From NCBI GenBank assembly GCA_033485155.1, contig JAWQJJ010000003.1, positions 248,001 to 312,000 on the forward strand: DNA of 64,000 nucleotides, read 5' to 3'. A program made the position numbers and the translations under genes. The stretch comes from Methanomassiliicoccus sp. (GTDB taxonomy: Archaea > Thermoplasmatota > Thermoplasmata > Methanomassiliicoccales > Methanomassiliicoccaceae). The notes beneath the pieces are model-generated. The model had not been told where the DNA came from and did no database searches. It saw only the letters and a program-made list of their open reading frames with translations. Below are positions 3,142 to 43,459 of the stretch, in pieces. Position 1 is the first letter of the stretch. Each line of letters starts with the position of its first letter.

Positions 3142-6096
3142 TCATGCCGGGATGGTGAAGAAGAACGTCGTCCCCTTGCCCGGTTCGCTCTCAAACCATA
3201 TGCGGCCGCCGTGTCGTTCGACGATCTTCTTGGCGACCGCCAGGCCGATGCCGGTGCCCGGATATTCCTCCTTCGTATGAAGGCGGTGGAACATCTTGAA
3301 CAGTTTCTCGGCGTATTTGGGATCGATGCCGATGCCGTTGTCCTGGACCGCAAAGACCGACATAAAGTTGTACGTGACGGCGGAGACCTCTACCCGGGGC
3401 GGCTGTTCCGCACGGAATTTAAGAGCGTTCGAAATCAGGTTCGTAAGCAATTGCTTCATCTGCACCTCATCGGCGTGGATGGTCGGCAGGGGGTAGATCG
3501 CGACCTCCGCTCCGCTCTCGGCGATCAGCATGCCGAGATCGTCCCTGACCGCTTGAGCCACCCGACCCATGTCGACATCCATAGGCTCGACCGGTCTCGA
3601 TTCCAAACGAGAATAGTCCAGCAGATCGTCGATCAATTCCCTCATCCTCACCGAGCCCTCGACGGCGGTTGCCACATACTCCTTGGCCTGCGATGGGAGT
3701 TCATCGCCGTACTTCTTGCTCAACAGCCCAAGGAAGGCGATGACCATGCGCAACGGTTCCTGTAGGTCATGAGAGGCGATGTATGCAAACTGCTGCAGAT
3801 CATCGTTCGAACGTTTGAGCTCTTCCTCCAGCTCCTTTTGCTCGGAAATGTCCGCGGCCACCCCCAGCAATCCGTTGACCGATCCCTCCTCATCGCGTAT
3901 GGGTACAGCCCAGGCTTGGAACGTTTTCCCCCTGATGTCGACGGTGAATGGGCTTTCCACTCCCAGTAGGGCTCGCGCCATCGCGTCGGTTATGGCCGGA
4001 TAGTCCCTATACATCTCGAAGGCCGAACGCCCCAACACCTCACCGGGCCTCAATCCGAGGCTACCGAGACCCCTCCCCTCAGATAGGGTGAAGTTGCCGT
4101 CTGAGTCGGTCGTCCAAAGGACGATGGGCAGGTTGGAGATCACCCCCCGAAGGATCGCCTCGCCCCTCCGCAGCGACTCCTCCACCCTTTTGCGCCCGGT
4201 GATGTCGATATGAATCCACATCCTCCCGCATGCTTCGCTCCCGATCCTGATAGGAGTATAATCGACGAGGACGGTCCGACCTCCCTTCAGAGCCACCTCC
4301 TCGTCCCGCACCGACCGATCACCTGATAAAATCTCCTCGATCCGGGCTATTGCCTCCTGTGGGTCTCCGTATTTATCGCGGACCATTTCGAGGACCTCAT
4401 CCCGGGACAGGTCGATGAGGTCCTCTGGCCGCCTATTTAGGTCGAACAGATCACAGAAGGCCGGGTTGGCGAACTCGACCTTGCCCGCTTCGGTGATCAA
4501 GAGGATGCCGTAGGGCATGTCAGAGAGGGTTCGGTAGAACCTTTCCAAGGTGCTCCTGAGCTGCTTCTCCGCCCTCTTGCGCTCGGTGATATCCTCGTAC
4601 GTTCCGAGGACCCCTATGATGCGGCCATCGAGTTCCCTGAGCGGCAGCTTGTTGGTCATGAGACACAGCTGGCTGCCATCGGGCCGGAGCTGCGGTTCCT
4701 CATAGTTCATCTTGGCGATGCCCGTTCTCATGACCTCTAGATCATCGGCCCGATACATCTCGGCCGAACTCCACCAGGCGAGGTCACGGTCGGTCTTCCC
4801 CACGATCTCGCTGGGTTCGGACAGCCCGGCGTCCTTGGCGGCGATGCGGTTGCACCCAATGTATCTCGAGTTAATGTCCTTCCAGAAGACGGGGACGGGA
4901 ACGCTATCCAGCACCAGCTGCAGCATGTGCCGGGAGCGCGTGATCTCTTCCTCATACCTCTTGCGCTCGGTGATGTCCCGGAAGATCACCTGCACACCCA
5001 TGCTGTCATCGAGCTTGTACGGCATAGTGGTGACGTCGACATCCACGCTTGAGCCGTCCTTGCGGAGGAACTTCTCCTCGATGCGGGGCTGGATAGTCCC
5101 CCTGTGGTCCCAGATCCGCCTCGACGCTATCTCTCGATAATCTGGATGGACCACGTCGATGGGGTTGATGCCAATGGTGTCCTCGGGCCGATCATAACCC
5201 ATGATCCGGGCTCCGGCCCGGTTCATAAAGAGCACGCGGCCTCCATCGTGTATGACCACGCCATCGGTCATCGATTCCACCAGCTGACGATACATTTCCC
5301 GGTTATCGTTCAGGGCATTTTCGGCCAGTTTTTTCTCGGTGACGTCCGAGCTGACGCCGACATGCCCGAGGAACCTACCGCTCTCGGAGAACCGAGGCTC
5401 GGCGTGGGACTCCACCCATCTCCAGGCCCCATCGGATCTACGGACCCGCGCTTCGGCCGAAAAGGGCCCGTGTTCGCGCGATGCGGCCTCGAAGGTGCAA
5501 AGATAGGTGAACGAATCCTCCGGATGTATCAGCGTCTGCCACTCTACTTCATCGGCAAGCTCGAGGGGGATGCCGAAAAACTCATGGTACTGGCGATTTG
5601 CGGCGATGAGCTTACTGTCTGCATCGGTCACCCAGATGATGTCTGGAGAACCATCCACCATGATGCGCAAGCGCTCCTCCCGCTCGTTGAGGACCTTCTC
5701 GCCCATTTTCCTTCCGGTGATGTCGGCAAACAATGACAAGACGCCGGCATACCTGTCCTCGTCATCGAAAATCGAAGTTGTGGATAAGGAGGTCCAGACC
5801 TCAGAACCGTCCCCGCGGCGCATGCGAACCTCGGCCTGATGGGCCCTGCCATCATCGCAGCCCTTGAACTTCTCACCATTCTGCTCCTTGTCCTCGAGGA
5901 TGAAGTCGGTGGGCGGGCGGCCGATCATCTCCTCTCGAGCGTAACCGAGGATGGCTGACCCGCTTTCGTTGACAAAGTTGATGAGGCCGTCGACTCCCAC
6001 CGTCCAGATGCCTTCAGGCGCCTGATCCACGATGAGCCTGAATCTGTCTAGAGGGATCTCTCCATGTTTCGTTGATGCACCCCCCGGCCTCAACAT
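3142..6096 (-). CDS. Soluble multi-PAS sensor histidine kinase
   Basis: A 984-residue sensor kinase with no membrane segment, so it should sense a cytoplasmic signal. I count six PAS modules, each ending in a PAC-type tail such as DITERKR or DITGRKR, starting near residues 17, 140, 265, 390, 515 and 635. The H-box SHDLQEPLRMV lies near residue 775. It is followed by an HATPase_c domain with the N-box NLISNALKF, the G1 box DNGIGID and the G2 region GTGIGLAVAKKIVERHGG. This layout is typical of Euryarchaeota. No response regulator gene lies beside it, so it is an orphan kinase. None of the PAS domains shows an obvious haem-binding Cys or flavin Cys motif. The start at 6096 has only a weak ribosome site. 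Confidence 0.9.
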   Translation of the reverse strand: MLRPGGASTKHGEIPLDRFRLIVDQAPEGIWTVGVDGLINFVNESGSAILGYAREEMIGRPPTDFILEDKEQNGEKFKGCDDGRAHQAEVRMRRGDGSEVWTSLSTTSIFDDEDRYAGVLSLFADITGRKMGEKVLNEREERLRIMVDGSPDIIWVTDADSKLIAANRQYHEFFGIPLELADEVEWQTLIHPEDSFTYLCTFEAASREHGPFSAEARVRRSDGAWRWVESHAEPRFSESGRFLGHVGVSSDVTEKKLAENALNDNREMYRQLVESMTDGVVIHDGGRVLFMNRAGARIMGYDRPEDTIGINPIDVVHPDYREIASRRIWDHRGTIQPRIEEKFLRKDGSSVDVDVTTMPYKLDDSMGVQVIFRDITERKRYEEEITRSRHMLQLVLDSVPVPVFWKDINSRYIGCNRIAAKDAGLSEPSEIVGKTDRDLAWWSSAEMYRADDLEVMRTGIAKMNYEEPQLRPDGSQLCLMTNKLPLRELDGRIIGVLGTYEDITERKRAEKQLRSTLERFYRTLSDMPYGILLITEAGKVEFANPAFCDLFDLNRRPEDLIDLSRDEVLEMVRDKYGDPQEAIARIEEILSGDRSVRDEEVALKGGRTVLVDYTPIRIGSEACGRMWIHIDITGRKRVEESLRRGEAILRGVISNLPIVLWTTDSDGNFTLSEGRGLGSLGLRPGEVLGRSAFEMYRDYPAITDAMARALLGVESPFTVDIRGKTFQAWAVPIRDEEGSVNGLLGVAADISEQKELEEELKRSNDDLQQFAYIASHDLQEPLRMVIAFLGLLSKKYGDELPSQAKEYVATAVEGSVRMRELIDDLLDYSRLESRPVEPMDVDMGRVAQAVRDDLGMLIAESGAEVAIYPLPTIHADEVQMKQLLTNLISNALKFRAEQPPRVEVSAVTYNFMSVFAVQDNGIGIDPKYAEKLFKMFHRLHTKEEYPGTGIGLAVAKKIVERHGGRIWFESEPGKGTTFFFTIPA

Positions 6097-10525: not shown

Positions 10526-10758
10526 AGTGAGAGAAAAAGTGGCTGACAGCGTTCCATGGTTCCCGCGGGCTCGCGCACCGCAGTACAGCATGGAACGCAG
10601 GCGGGCTTAACTTCCGGGTTCGAATGGGACCGGGTGTATCCCCGCCGCTGTGGCCGTCACACCAAAACCACTGATGAATATCATCTATTTATTCGTTTCT
10701 GTACGGTCGCCCCGCCATAGAACGGAACGTCCAGGGAGTATCGCTTGGGGACATGCCC

Positions 10759-17439: not shown

Positions 17440-18399
17440 TCACGGAAGGACAATTGAGCCGGCGACCCTCAGCTTCCCGCCTTCCAGGTACATGATGACC
17501 GCCCGGGACCCGGGAGGGTGCACGACCGGCTTGTCCAGGGTCAAGGAGATGGTCGGCCGACGGAAGTCGCCGCCATCCTTAACCGCCTCCACACGGGCGC
17601 CGATGAACTGCATCCAGTGTCCGAGGTGCAGGACCATCCCCTCCTTCAGAGGCATCTTCCAGTAGTTGACCAGCTCCGCCTGGGCGGTGACGGATGAGTC
17701 GCTTCTTATGCTGCTGTCCTCGGTGAGCACATACCCTCGGTCCAGCTGCTCCACGTCGATGTTCTTCAGTGCCAGGCCGACGCGGTCCCCATGGACCGCG
17801 TCGTCGAAATCGTCATCATGCTTCTGGATAGACCGCACGAGTGCTGTGCGGTTGGTGGGCAGCACCTTCAGGTCGTCGTGCTTCTCGATGCGGCCGTACG
17901 CCACGTAGCCGAGGATGACCGTGCCCACTCCCTTGACGTTGAAGAAGTGGTCGATGGGTACTGCCCCCTTCCCCATCCCCTGAGCGACCGTCCGGCCCTT
18001 GGCCTCGCTGATCAGCATCTCGCGGAGGGAGTTCTTGTCATCCTCCACAAAGCGATACGCTTCCAACACCGTTCCCTTGGTCAGCGGGGCGAGCTGCTCC
18101 CGGGTAAGGTAATTGCGGAGGATGATGTATCCCTCCTTCACCCCGGCGCACTGCAGCATGACGATGCACTCCCCCAGCTGAGCGTTGATCGCCTCCACCA
18201 CCACCAGCGCGCGGTCGGCCATGGAGACAGCATAGAAGAGCGGGGCAAGGCGGTCGGGATACTTGGTCGGCTCGATGAAGGTCACCGTATCGGTGCCCTG
18301 CTTCAGATCGTAGAGCGTGATGTCCGAGGCGGTTCCCTTCTTTCCCAGGTCCTTGGCGTAATCGTTCGGACCGATGACCGCCACGTTCAGGTTGGCCAT
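17440..18399 (-). CDS. Archaeal SelB-like (aSelBL) EF-Tu paralog with dead GTPase domain
   Basis: A protein of 319 residues with the domain order of EF-Tu/SelB: a shortened G domain (1-130), a domain-II barrel (DHFFNVKGVGTVILGYVAYG, near 165) and a third barrel. The GTPase signatures are gone. The P-loop GHVDHGK(S/T) is replaced by GPNDYAKDLGKKG, DTPGH by EPTKYPDR and NKxD by RNYLTRE. This matches the archaeal SelB-like family, which is wider than selenocysteine or pyrrolysine use and known for G-domain disruption. It may still contact aminoacyl-tRNA and the ribosome. A TATA-like CCTTTATCC about 28 bases before the ATG suggests a leaderless transcript. Confidence 0.7.
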   Translation of the reverse strand: MANLNVAVIGPNDYAKDLGKKGTASDITLYDLKQGTDTVTFIEPTKYPDRLAPLFYAVSMADRALVVVEAINAQLGECIVMLQCAGVKEGYIILRNYLTREQLAPLTKGTVLEAYRFVEDDKNSLREMLISEAKGRTVAQGMGKGAVPIDHFFNVKGVGTVILGYVAYGRIEKHDDLKVLPTNRTALVRSIQKHDDDFDDAVHGDRVGLALKNIDVEQLDRGYVLTEDSSIRSDSSVTAQAELVNYWKMPLKEGMVLHLGHWMQFIGARVEAVKDGGDFRRPTISLTLDKPVVHPPGSRAVIMYLEGGKLRVAGSIVLP

Positions 18400-18469
18400 G
18401 GTGGACGATAAAAATGGGGCGGGATAAAGGTTTTTGGATGGAAAAAGAGAGGGACCGGCCCCGACGCCC

Positions 18470-19243
18470 TCAGGTGCCGGTAGCCAGGGTACCCGCGAAA
18501 ACCAGCCAGGCCAGTGCCGACTTGGCGAACAGGCTTAGCAGGATGTAGACATACTCGCCGAACAGGTAGTCCTTCCATCTTCCCACCTTCTTGTACTGCA
18601 GGACCATGTTGAAGGCGAAGGAGAAGAAGAAGATCGCAATGACGAAGTATATCCAGTACACGAAGTCCGGGACTCTTCCACCAACTCCCGAACCCCACAG
18701 GTAGATGGAGATGACCACCCAAGGAACTAGACCGGCGTAGGTGCCGAAGATGTAGGAGGTCCAGTCCGTCTTCTTGGTGACCTGGTTGTGCTTCTCCATC
18801 ATCAGCCCGAACAGGTTCATCACCGAGTTGATGGCGAACAGCGGAATGATCGCCGCGATGTCCCGGACCCCGCACAGGACGGCGATGACCACAATCATCA
18901 CCGAGGACGAGATGGCGTACTCGTACCATCGGGCGTAGTTGTGGTTCTCCTTCAACCCCGCCACGTACCATTTGTACAGCGGACCGGCCAGGAGGAAGTG
19001 GTCGAACGCCGATATGAACAGGAACAGGGCGACCATGGGGCCTAGCAGCAGATCGAACATCAGCTGCTGCTGCGATATCAGGCTCTGAGTGGCCGGATCG
19101 AACTTCAGGAAATAGCTGTAGATCGGCTGGGAGGTATTATTTGCCAGCACCAGGATGAGCAGTGCCTGCACCAGGTGCACGACCGCCATTACGGCGTTGA
19201 ACCTCCTGAGTCTCTTGAACTTCATTTCCTCTGTTAGGTTCAT
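18470..19243 (-). CDS. Heliorhodopsin
   Basis: A 257-residue seven-helix membrane protein that I recognise as a heliorhodopsin, a retinal protein inverted in the membrane relative to type I rhodopsins and without a proven pump activity. Family marks are RRFNAVMAVVHLVQALLILVL in helix 1 (residues 13-33), ARWYEYAISSSVMIVVIAVL in helix 3 with Glu108 as the likely Schiff-base counterion, and helix 7 SLFAKSALAWLVFAGTL with Lys241 as the retinal lysine. Length and lysine position agree with characterised members. It is a single gene; the next genes are the SelB-like factor downstream and an exporter upstream. No carotenoid cleavage or carotenoid synthesis gene is in the window, apart from a remote CrtC-like protein. 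Confidence 0.9.
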   Translation of the reverse strand: MNLTEEMKFKRLRRFNAVMAVVHLVQALLILVLANNTSQPIYSYFLKFDPATQSLISQQQLMFDLLLGPMVALFLFISAFDHFLLAGPLYKWYVAGLKENHNYARWYEYAISSSVMIVVIAVLCGVRDIAAIIPLFAINSVMNLFGLMMEKHNQVTKKTDWTSYIFGTYAGLVPWVVISIYLWGSGVGGRVPDFVYWIYFVIAIFFFSFAFNMVLQYKKVGRWKDYLFGEYVYILLSLFAKSALAWLVFAGTLATGT

Positions 19244-19265: not shown

Positions 19266-19280
19266 ATAATAAAAAGATAC
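19266..19280 (-). promoter_or_regulatory. TATA box of the heliorhodopsin gene
   Basis: CTTTTTATTATTTC, read leftward, ends about 25 bases before the ATG at 19243. This suggests transcription starts at or just before the start codon. Confidence 0.45.
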
Positions 19281-19321: not shown

Positions 19322-20788
19322 TCAGGGACCCTTTCCCTCAGCCATGCTCTCCACCTCGCACTGCACCACCTTGCCCCGGGCCAGCGAGGTTAGGGCACCA
19401 ACAAAGGCGATCCCCGCCGATACCATGAACGCCAAGTTCATCCCGCTGACGAACTCCGCGGTCCCGGCGAGGGGCACCGAGCCCATCGTCCCCGAGAACA
19501 GCTCGGACACCACCGCGGTCGAGGCCACCGTTGCCACCAACGCGCCCATCACCGCCAGGCTGAGCGATTGCCCCACCGTGCGCATCGTGGACAGGGTCCC
19601 CGAGGCCACCCCCAGTTGCTCCCTGGGGACGCATCCCATGATGGCGCTGGTGTTGGGAGAAGAGAACATCCCCATGCCAATGCCCAGCAGGACAAGATAG
19701 GCGACGAGCTCCAGAGCCGAGGTGCTCTCTCCGATGGTCCCCAGCAACAGCAGGCCGATGGTGATGAGGAGCATCCCCCCGGACGCGAGGACGCGGGAGC
19801 CGATGCGATCGGAGGCGGCCCCCATGATGGGCGACAGGATGCTCATCACCAGGGGCATGGACAGGAGGACGAAGCCGGTGAGCGCCAGGGAGTAACCGAG
19901 GACCCGTTGCATGTAGAACGAAAGAAGGAAGGAGATCCCGAAGTACGAGGTGTAGTTCAGCAGGGCGGAGATGTTGGCCATGGCGAACAGGCGGTTCCTG
20001 GTCAGCAGGTGGAGGTCGAGCATGGCGTCCGGTCCCTTCCTCCGCTCGATGACCACGAACACGGCGAAGCTGATGATGGTCACCACCAGGAGGGTTATCG
20101 AGACCGGGGAGGTCCAGCCCAGGTCCTCCCCCACTGTAAGGTTGATGAGCAGCGCGGACAGCCCGGTGGCGAAGGTTATGGCCCCGGTCAGGTCAAAGGG
20201 GCGGGGGCGGACGGTGCGGACCGGCTCCTTCATCATCGCCAGGGAGAGGGCGATGACGACCAGACCTATGGGGATGTTGACCAGGAAAATGGACGGCCAA
20301 CCGAAGGACGCCGTCAGGAAGCCTCCCAGGGGCGGACCCAAGCTGAGGCCGATGTACACGGACATGGCGTTGATGCCCAGCGCCTTACCCCGCTCCTGGG
20401 GCGGGAAGGAGGCGGTTATTATGGCGGGCGAGGTTGACATGATCATCGCCGCCCCGATACCCTGGAGGAAGCGGAATGCGATCATCTCCCCGCCGTTGAC
20501 GGACACGCTGCATAGGAGGGAGCCGAGGACGAAGATGGCGAAGCCGGCGACGAACAAGGGCTTTCGCCCTCGTAGGTCGGAGAGCCGGCCCACGGTGAGC
20601 AGCAAGCTAGCCACCGCGAGGAGATACGCGGTGGGAATCCACAACGCCGTCGCATAGTCCATCCCCAGATCGCTGGAGATGGTGGGCAGGGAGACGCTGA
20701 CGATGGTCGAGTCCAGGGGGCCCATGAGTGCCCCGACACAGGTAATGAATAGGATGATCCGCCGTTCCCGTTTATCCAGCGCTGCCAA
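19322..20788 (-). CDS. MFS drug:H+ antiporter, DHA2 family (14 TM)
   Basis: A 488-residue transporter of the EmrB/QacA type, expected to export small molecules against protons. It has about fourteen hydrophobic segments. The motif-A loop VGRLSDLRGRKPLF lies between TM2 and TM3. LGPPLGGFLTASFGWPSIFLVNIPIG is the motif-C/TM5-6 stretch of the DHA2 group, split here by turns. Acidic residues within membrane segments are few. The substrate is unknown. The gene stands alone, divergent from superoxide dismutase at 20965, so the two might share a control region. Confidence 0.85.
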   Translation of the reverse strand: MAALDKRERRIILFITCVGALMGPLDSTIVSVSLPTISSDLGMDYATALWIPTAYLLAVASLLLTVGRLSDLRGRKPLFVAGFAIFVLGSLLCSVSVNGGEMIAFRFLQGIGAAMIMSTSPAIITASFPPQERGKALGINAMSVYIGLSLGPPLGGFLTASFGWPSIFLVNIPIGLVVIALSLAMMKEPVRTVRPRPFDLTGAITFATGLSALLINLTVGEDLGWTSPVSITLLVVTIISFAVFVVIERRKGPDAMLDLHLLTRNRLFAMANISALLNYTSYFGISFLLSFYMQRVLGYSLALTGFVLLSMPLVMSILSPIMGAASDRIGSRVLASGGMLLITIGLLLLGTIGESTSALELVAYLVLLGIGMGMFSSPNTSAIMGCVPREQLGVASGTLSTMRTVGQSLSLAVMGALVATVASTAVVSELFSGTMGSVPLAGTAEFVSGMNLAFMVSAGIAFVGALTSLARGKVVQCEVESMAEGKGP

Positions 20789-20964: not shown

Positions 20965-21636
20965 ATGACCGACGGCAAGGGGTTTTATTCGCTCCCTGCC
21001 CTGCCCTACGGGTACGGGGAGCTGGCGCCATTCATATCCGAACAATTGTTGAAAGTTCACCATGACGGGCATCACCAGAAGTACGTGAACCAGGCCAACG
21101 GCCTCCTCGAGAAGATGGACAAGGCCCGGGCCGAGGGAACGATGCCCAACATGAAGGCCGAAGCCCAGGCCCTGGCCTTCAATGTCGGGGGCCATTTCCT
21201 CCACAAGTTATACTGGGAGAACATGAGGCCAGCGACATCGGGAGGGGGAGGGAGGCCCGGAGGCAAGATCGCTGACCTCCTGGACCAAGAGTTCGGCGGC
21301 TTCGAGCGCTTCCAGAAGGAATTCACCGAGCTCGCCAACACGGTGGAATCGTCAGGTTGGGCGACCTTGATATACTGCAGCATGACCAAGCGCCCGCTGT
21401 TGGTACAGGTCAAGGATCATGACCTCTATGCCATCCCCGGGTTCAAGGTGCTGATGGTCATGGACGTATGGGAGCACGCCTACTATCTGGACTATAAAAA
21501 CGAAAAGGCCAAGTACACCGCGAACTTCTGGAACGTCATCAACTGGGACGTGATCGACCAGCGGTTGGAGAAGGTCCTCGGCGGGAGGAAGGAAGGAATG
21601 GCGGTGCCGGTGGCCGCGGCCGGTGGGTCGCTATGA
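20965..21636 (+). CDS. sod: Fe/Mn superoxide dismutase
   Basis: A 223-residue cytoplasmic enzyme that converts superoxide to hydrogen peroxide and oxygen. The four metal ligands fit: His in KVHHDGHHQKYV, His in VGGHFLHKLYW, and Asp plus His in MDVWEHAYYLDY. The N-terminal LPALPYGYGELAPFIS is the usual substrate-channel entrance. Metal choice cannot be read safely. A GGTGAC element precedes the ATG and a TATA-like stretch lies near 20925. Its 3' end overlaps the open frame of the MEDS protein upstream of that gene's likely start. Presence in an otherwise anaerobe-like genome suggests exposure to oxygen. Confidence 0.93.
   Translation: MTDGKGFYSLPALPYGYGELAPFISEQLLKVHHDGHHQKYVNQANGLLEKMDKARAEGTMPNMKAEAQALAFNVGGHFLHKLYWENMRPATSGGGGRPGGKIADLLDQEFGGFERFQKEFTELANTVESSGWATLIYCSMTKRPLLVQVKDHDLYAIPGFKVLMVMDVWEHAYYLDYKNEKAKYTANFWNVINWDVIDQRLEKVLGGRKEGMAVPVAAAGGSL

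Positions 21637-40521: not shown

Positions 40522-40534
<13 letters not shown>
40502..40534 (-). repeat. 3' arm of the pre-23S rRNA processing stem
   Basis: Inverted repeat with 43460-43492. Two 13-base arms (outer 40502-40514, inner 40522-40534) pair with the other side, 12 of 13 Watson-Crick plus one G-U for the outer and 13 of 13 for the inner. The seven bases between pair as a short central helix with three-base bulges, a bulge-helix-bulge. The inner arm includes the conserved terminal helix 1 of 23S rRNA. Confidence 0.75.

Positions 40535-43459
<2,925 letters not shown>

Follow-up and report, generated by a model that had tools for sequence, protein, structure and literature searches.

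The window analysed here, a stretch of 64,000 nucleotides (G000:C3:248001-312000), belongs to a 2.8-Mb assembly with 99.96% completeness and 3% estimated contamination. On the minus strand, positions 18470..19243 encode a protein of 257 residues, with the ATG start codon at 19243 and the TGA stop codon ending at 18470, exactly the ends given in an earlier reading made from the sequence only; the plus-strand reading of this interval is interrupted by stops. The translated product is a genuine heliorhodopsin, and its family membership is far beyond chance. It matched PF18761 over the entire profile (positions 1–242 of 242; E-value, 9.7e-97; 323.5 bits against a cut-off of 26.7) and the NCBIfam equivalog NF038020 (334.2 bits; cut-off, 100), and a PDB search retrieved six distinct heliorhodopsin sequences, the best being that of TaHeR (PDB ID: 6is6; E-value, 5.5e-78). 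PF18761 was the sole Pfam family matched at an E-value of 0.001, giving no assignment to the type-1 (proteo-/bacteriorhodopsin) family.

Structure prediction with AlphaFold2 gave a modest-confidence model (pLDDT, 69; pTM, 0.68) whose helices fit seven transmembrane spans, as the sequence-only reading had proposed. The ten best PDB structural matches to this model were all heliorhodopsins (TM-score, 0.73–0.79), and type-1 folds ranked 11th and lower, with E-values of 0.0056 and worse. The protein is a type-3 rhodopsin, and its N-terminus is predicted to be cytoplasmic; this inverted topology of heliorhodopsins is favoured by the charges of the loops, which hold 5, 3, 3, and 4 Lys and Arg residues on the inner side versus 1, 1, 1, and 0 on the outer side (15 versus 3 in total). 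Glu108 and Lys241, the two residues on which the identification had been based together with the seven helices, align with Glu107 and Lys241 of the actinobacterial heliorhodopsin 48C12 (PDB IDs: 6su3, 6su4, and 6uh3), and their counterparts in TaHeR are Glu108 and the lysine that carries retinal. None of the 57 aligned proteins departs from Lys241, Glu108, His82, or Ser237, so that the helix 7 retinal lysine in its SxxxK motif (Ser237 and Lys241) and the helix 3 Glu counterion occur in 57/57; His23 is present in 56, the remaining row being a gap.

TaHeR, from Thermoplasmatales archaeon SG8-52-1 (PDB IDs: 6is6, 7clj, and 7u55), shares with the present protein the family and phylum, the counterion Glu108, the SxxxK motif, and two pocket histidines, and aligns with it over residues 4–253 (E-value, 5e-78); in this alignment, the last outer loop has a gap of 3 residues. 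However, in the protein tree TaHeR lies with a Thermoplasmatota family (f23) apart from the present protein, whose host, moreover, is a methanogen. In several f23 heliorhodopsins (L104, L106, and L108–L110), the reading frame runs upstream into an N-terminal extension with an MCPK motif, and these are perhaps the published zinc-ribbon heliorhodopsins (PMC8612252). 48C12 likewise has the corresponding Lys241, Glu107/Glu108, His23, and His80/His82, but is more distant (E-value, 2.5e-57) and sits on a very long branch.

A putative archaeal TATA box (TTTTTATTA; 19267..19275, minus strand) has its centre 28 nt ahead of the heliorhodopsin start codon, the upstream sequence contains no Shine–Dalgarno motif, and a similar box (TTTTTATATT) is found at about equal distance from the start of the heliorhodopsin gene in a relative, G006. 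The upstream neighbour encodes a DHA2/EmrB-type MFS efflux transporter (19322..20788, minus strand; PF07690, E-value, 2e-53; TIGR00711 over cut-off), whose reading frame lies on the same strand and stops 78 nt short of the heliorhodopsin start codon; the MFS gene is divergent from an Fe/Mn superoxide dismutase gene (20965..21636, plus strand), which is part of a conserved block whether heliorhodopsin is present or absent. The downstream flank is a gene for an EF1A/SelB-like protein of 319 residues (17440..18399, minus strand), conserved in 14 of the 15 family genomes searched and preceded by its own putative promoter (CCTTTATCC; 18422..18430, minus strand), which is also found in the heliorhodopsin-less genome G005. 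The EF1A/SelB-like protein was matched at EF-Tu domain 2 only, is 63–86% conserved in 13 other family genomes, and seems to be missing the normal GTP-binding loop at its N-terminus.

The heliorhodopsin gene lies between the EmrB-type MFS and EF1A/SelB-like genes in its own genome (G000), G006, G014, and G011, and the same flanks occur without it in G005, G001, G002, G003, G008, G009, G010, and G012. In G005, the sister genome by mcrA, the flanks are only about 94 bp apart; in G006, the MFS and heliorhodopsin genes are separated by about 1.3 kb with an opposite-strand open reading frame. G000 and G005 have almost the same promoter-like sequence ahead of the EF1A-like gene, which therefore probably keeps a promoter of its own. 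The sequence comparison supports the heliorhodopsin gene as a leaderless one-gene unit with its own putative promoter, in line with the earlier proposal of a leaderless and monocistronic gene. The synteny speaks against an operon with either flanking gene (MFS pump or EF1A-like), and because both are conserved without heliorhodopsin, too, they are weak partner candidates. Neither a histidine kinase nor any other gene for signalling directly adjoins the heliorhodopsin gene; a histidine kinase of 984 residues with about six PAS domains is encoded 12 kb away (3142-6096).

A second heliorhodopsin (HeR2), 61% identical to the first, is encoded on contig 2 of the same genome (G000:C2:490590-491315). 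HeR2 and the copy in G012 lie in a 1.18-kb island of similarity inside unrelated flanks, a further sign of the gene moving as a small unit. In the HeR2 neighbourhood (L047:9558-12350), a truncated SDR gene of 73 codons comes after the HeR2 gene, and then a phage-type integrase gene beside a tRNA-Leu; the locus resembles an integration site, and integration may have cut the SDR gene. When the host and 60 relatives were searched, heliorhodopsin matches were found in 32 of these 61 genomes and in 15 of 24 genera, with only 5 of 19 genomes in family f2 (probably Methanomethylophilaceae), and in 34 of 243 genomes of a phylum sample. On an mcrA tree, built from reading frames selected by BLAST, presence and absence require at least 13 changes, and gain and loss are therefore frequent. 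In the protein tree, which the sequence-only reading had named as a check, the protein, with Lys241 intact, groups with those of G006 and G014 (support, 96/96); they belong to a larger Methanomassiliicoccales group (100/96), which is placed among Thermoplasmatota sequences and also includes HeR2, beside the G012 protein. The dN/dS ratio between the window gene and that of G006 is about 0.15 (dN, 0.12; dS, 0.82), showing that the gene is kept by purifying selection, and that between HeR2 and its G012 relative is 0.08. The third-position GC content of the gene (0.84) is close to that of its neighbours (0.85–0.88); the gene is neither decaying nor compositionally foreign. Two other genomes, G030 and G016, carry tandem pairs of divergent heliorhodopsins (L051:7787-9497 and L052:6996-8790) adjoined by an opposite-strand gene for an ArsA-type ATPase, and assemblies of Patescibacteria and other bacteria (L056–L059), some of them digester-named, encode heliorhodopsins 51–58% identical to the present one.

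The host is a methanogen, because mcrA is present (as in 54 of the 61 genomes searched) and COX1 has no match in its genome, and it is therefore a strict anaerobe; it is placed in Methanomassiliicoccaceae, probably in Methanomassiliicoccus. Of the earlier description of a methanogen-like, anaerobic or microaerobic host, the first part stands and is made more definite, while ‘microaerobic’ is less apt. The window contains a 5S rRNA gene (10541-10661) and a 23S rRNA gene (40533-43459), both on the minus strand and 30 kb apart, and no 16S rRNA gene; the rRNA genes are unlinked. The 23S and 5S genes are set apart in other Thermoplasmata as well.

The sequence-only reading had found no retinal-forming gene in the window and had proposed a search of the genome for carotenoid synthesis and cleavage genes. 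In the whole genome, no match was obtained to BCD (brp/blh), SQS_PSY (crtB phytoene/squalene synthase), the RPE65-type oxygenase, or the CrtYcd-type lycopene cyclase, extending the absence to the genome for these four families, which made up the search. As controls, the BCD model gave matches with E-values down to 1e-55 in another family of the phylum, and the other three models gave matches in control genomes. None of the 60 relatives had a BCD match over the cut-off or any RPE65 match; BCD-like matches in 8 relatives (19–27 bits, under the cut-off, most with internal stops) were not counted as brp/blh. Phytoene synthase occurs in six relatives; in the examined clusters it is accompanied by a CrtI-like oxidase and by UbiA prenyltransferases, but by no enzyme recognised as cleaving carotenoids, and a retinal pathway is not evident. 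Clusters of CrtI-like, CrtB, and UbiA-type prenyltransferase genes (L041–L046, L054, L087, and L088) in some Methanomassiliicoccales suggest acyclic or C50 carotenoids in methanogens.

The known retinal-forming enzymes are oxygenases that use oxygen, and import is therefore the simplest account of the retinal. Genes of a PRK06197-type SDR are located near some heliorhodopsin genes of the order, directly downstream in G012 (L079:8280-9137) and as the 73-codon remnant near HeR2, and none is beside the window gene. The best PDB matches of this SDR include protochlorophyllide reductases, and the PRK06197 group is reminiscent of retinol dehydrogenases. That heliorhodopsins can have SDR neighbours is on record (PMC11109279), and retinol salvage by the SDR is a lead, not a result.

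Photolyase (PF00875) has no match in the host genome and exceeds the cut-off in 21 relatives. Across the order, 18 genomes have both heliorhodopsin and photolyase, 12 heliorhodopsin only, 2 photolyase only, and 27 neither, a co-occurrence above expectation (Fisher's exact test, p = 1.9e-5). When relatedness is allowed for on the mcrA tree, there are about 4.8 informative independent pairs, all in agreement and none opposed, but they are too few for significance (median p, 0.06); the association is then only suggestive. In six genomes of family f3, the photolyase gene is located 3.8–7 kb downstream of the heliorhodopsin gene on the same strand, but these loci are syntenic and therefore count as about one event. 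The link recalls the Trichococcus heliorhodopsin TfHeR, which works with a class II photolyase (PMC9769723) and whose association recurs in relatives within the order, although in those relatives several genes intervene and no operon is evident. Since the host genome lacks PF00875, its heliorhodopsin does not belong to the photolyase-associated group, and a partner of the Trichococcus type is impossible here.

The best explanation, and one that we hold to be fairly probable, is a sensory heliorhodopsin that uses scavenged retinal and warns of UV and photo-oxidative stress. All-trans-retinal would be scavenged from outside, a supply suggested because no known making pathway was found, and would probably be bound at Lys241 through a Schiff base whose counterion is Glu108. 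By homology with TaHeR and 48C12, light would isomerise the retinal, protons would move slowly near Glu108, His23, and His82, and the protein would change its shape without pumping ions; this change may be passed to a partner protein. The likely benefit would be that light alerts cells that come near the surface to UV and photo-oxidative stress. Against the sensory reading counts that many near relatives, including the sister G005, do without the gene.

Retinal might instead be made inside the cell by an unrecognised route, through a cleavage enzyme or through retinol salvage by a dehydrogenase. The rhodopsin-bearing actinobacterium Aurantimicrobium minutum contains retinal without the known genes (PMC7734400), a precedent for such a route, and the SDR genes beside some heliorhodopsins of the order, with the remnant at HeR2, would fit salvage; however, cleavage by an oxygenase is at odds with an anaerobe, the lack of phytoene synthase leaves no home-made carotene to cleave, and the window gene has no SDR beside it, all of which makes this route rather unlikely. 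Methanomassiliicoccales live mostly in dark, anoxic places, and this, like the absence of every retinal gene searched for, would suit a retinal-free membrane scaffold or regulator with a relic pocket, but a relic is not expected to keep Lys241, Glu108, His82, and Ser237 in 57 of 57 proteins and His23 in 56, and the photolyase association points to light; we consider this reading improbable. Equally improbable is that heliorhodopsin modulates the neighbouring MFS efflux pump as OcHeR does the ABC drug exporter OmrDE (PMC11109279). In the host, G014, and G011, the pump gene does immediately precede the heliorhodopsin gene in the same orientation, yet it stands at the same place in most heliorhodopsin-less genomes (G005, G001, G008, G009, and G010), the pair is interrupted in G006, the heliorhodopsin gene has its own putative promoter, and HeR2 and other paralogues have no recognised MFS neighbour.

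Light-driven proton transport or a channel function, of the kind described for viral V2HeR3 and for some giant-virus heliorhodopsins (PMC9448325), is very unlikely, as the present sequence groups with the TaHeR-type archaeal proteins. The latter are not known to be transporters. Contamination or misassembly is more unlikely still: the 3% estimated for the assembly would allow it, but the flanks are colinear with those of same-family relatives, the arrangement recurs in G006, G014, and G011, and the third-position GC content is near that of the neighbours. An oxygen-free supply for the sensory protein, in which retinal or retinol would be taken up from decaying oxic-zone biomass, the retinol oxidised by the heliorhodopsin-linked SDRs of the order, and a working light sensor formed, is a long shot; if true, the sensor would tell a carotenoid-less methanogen of its nearness to the lit, oxic surface.

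Heliorhodopsins are already known in Thermoplasmatota (PMC8612252) and in anaerobic archaea. Those of Bathyarchaeota, whose transcripts have been reported (PMC7110647), likewise come from sediment archaea without a complete retinal pathway, but belong to another phylum. No paper mentioning heliorhodopsin together with Methanomassiliicoccales was found in the literature searched, and published genome surveys of Thermoplasmatota (PMC8612252) may contain such proteins in their tables. A few heliorhodopsins of bacteria have been described as acting on or with a partner, namely glutamine synthetase (PMC9529153), photolyase (PMC9769723), and an ABC transporter (PMC11109279); the earlier remark that heliorhodopsin function is unsettled still holds in general despite these, and the puzzle that it saw in a light role in a methanogen is genuine and sharper than it was put.

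Heliorhodopsins are widespread and their roles poorly known, and methanogens present a sharp case. The pocket is kept by selection, though no known chromophore pathway was found in the cell; the pigment must be imported or made by an unrecognised route, or else the protein is used without retinal. Among genomes that are otherwise colinear, the gene is present or absent as a single clean unit, which offers natural pairs with and without it, such as G000 and G005, and a test case for retinal scavenging.
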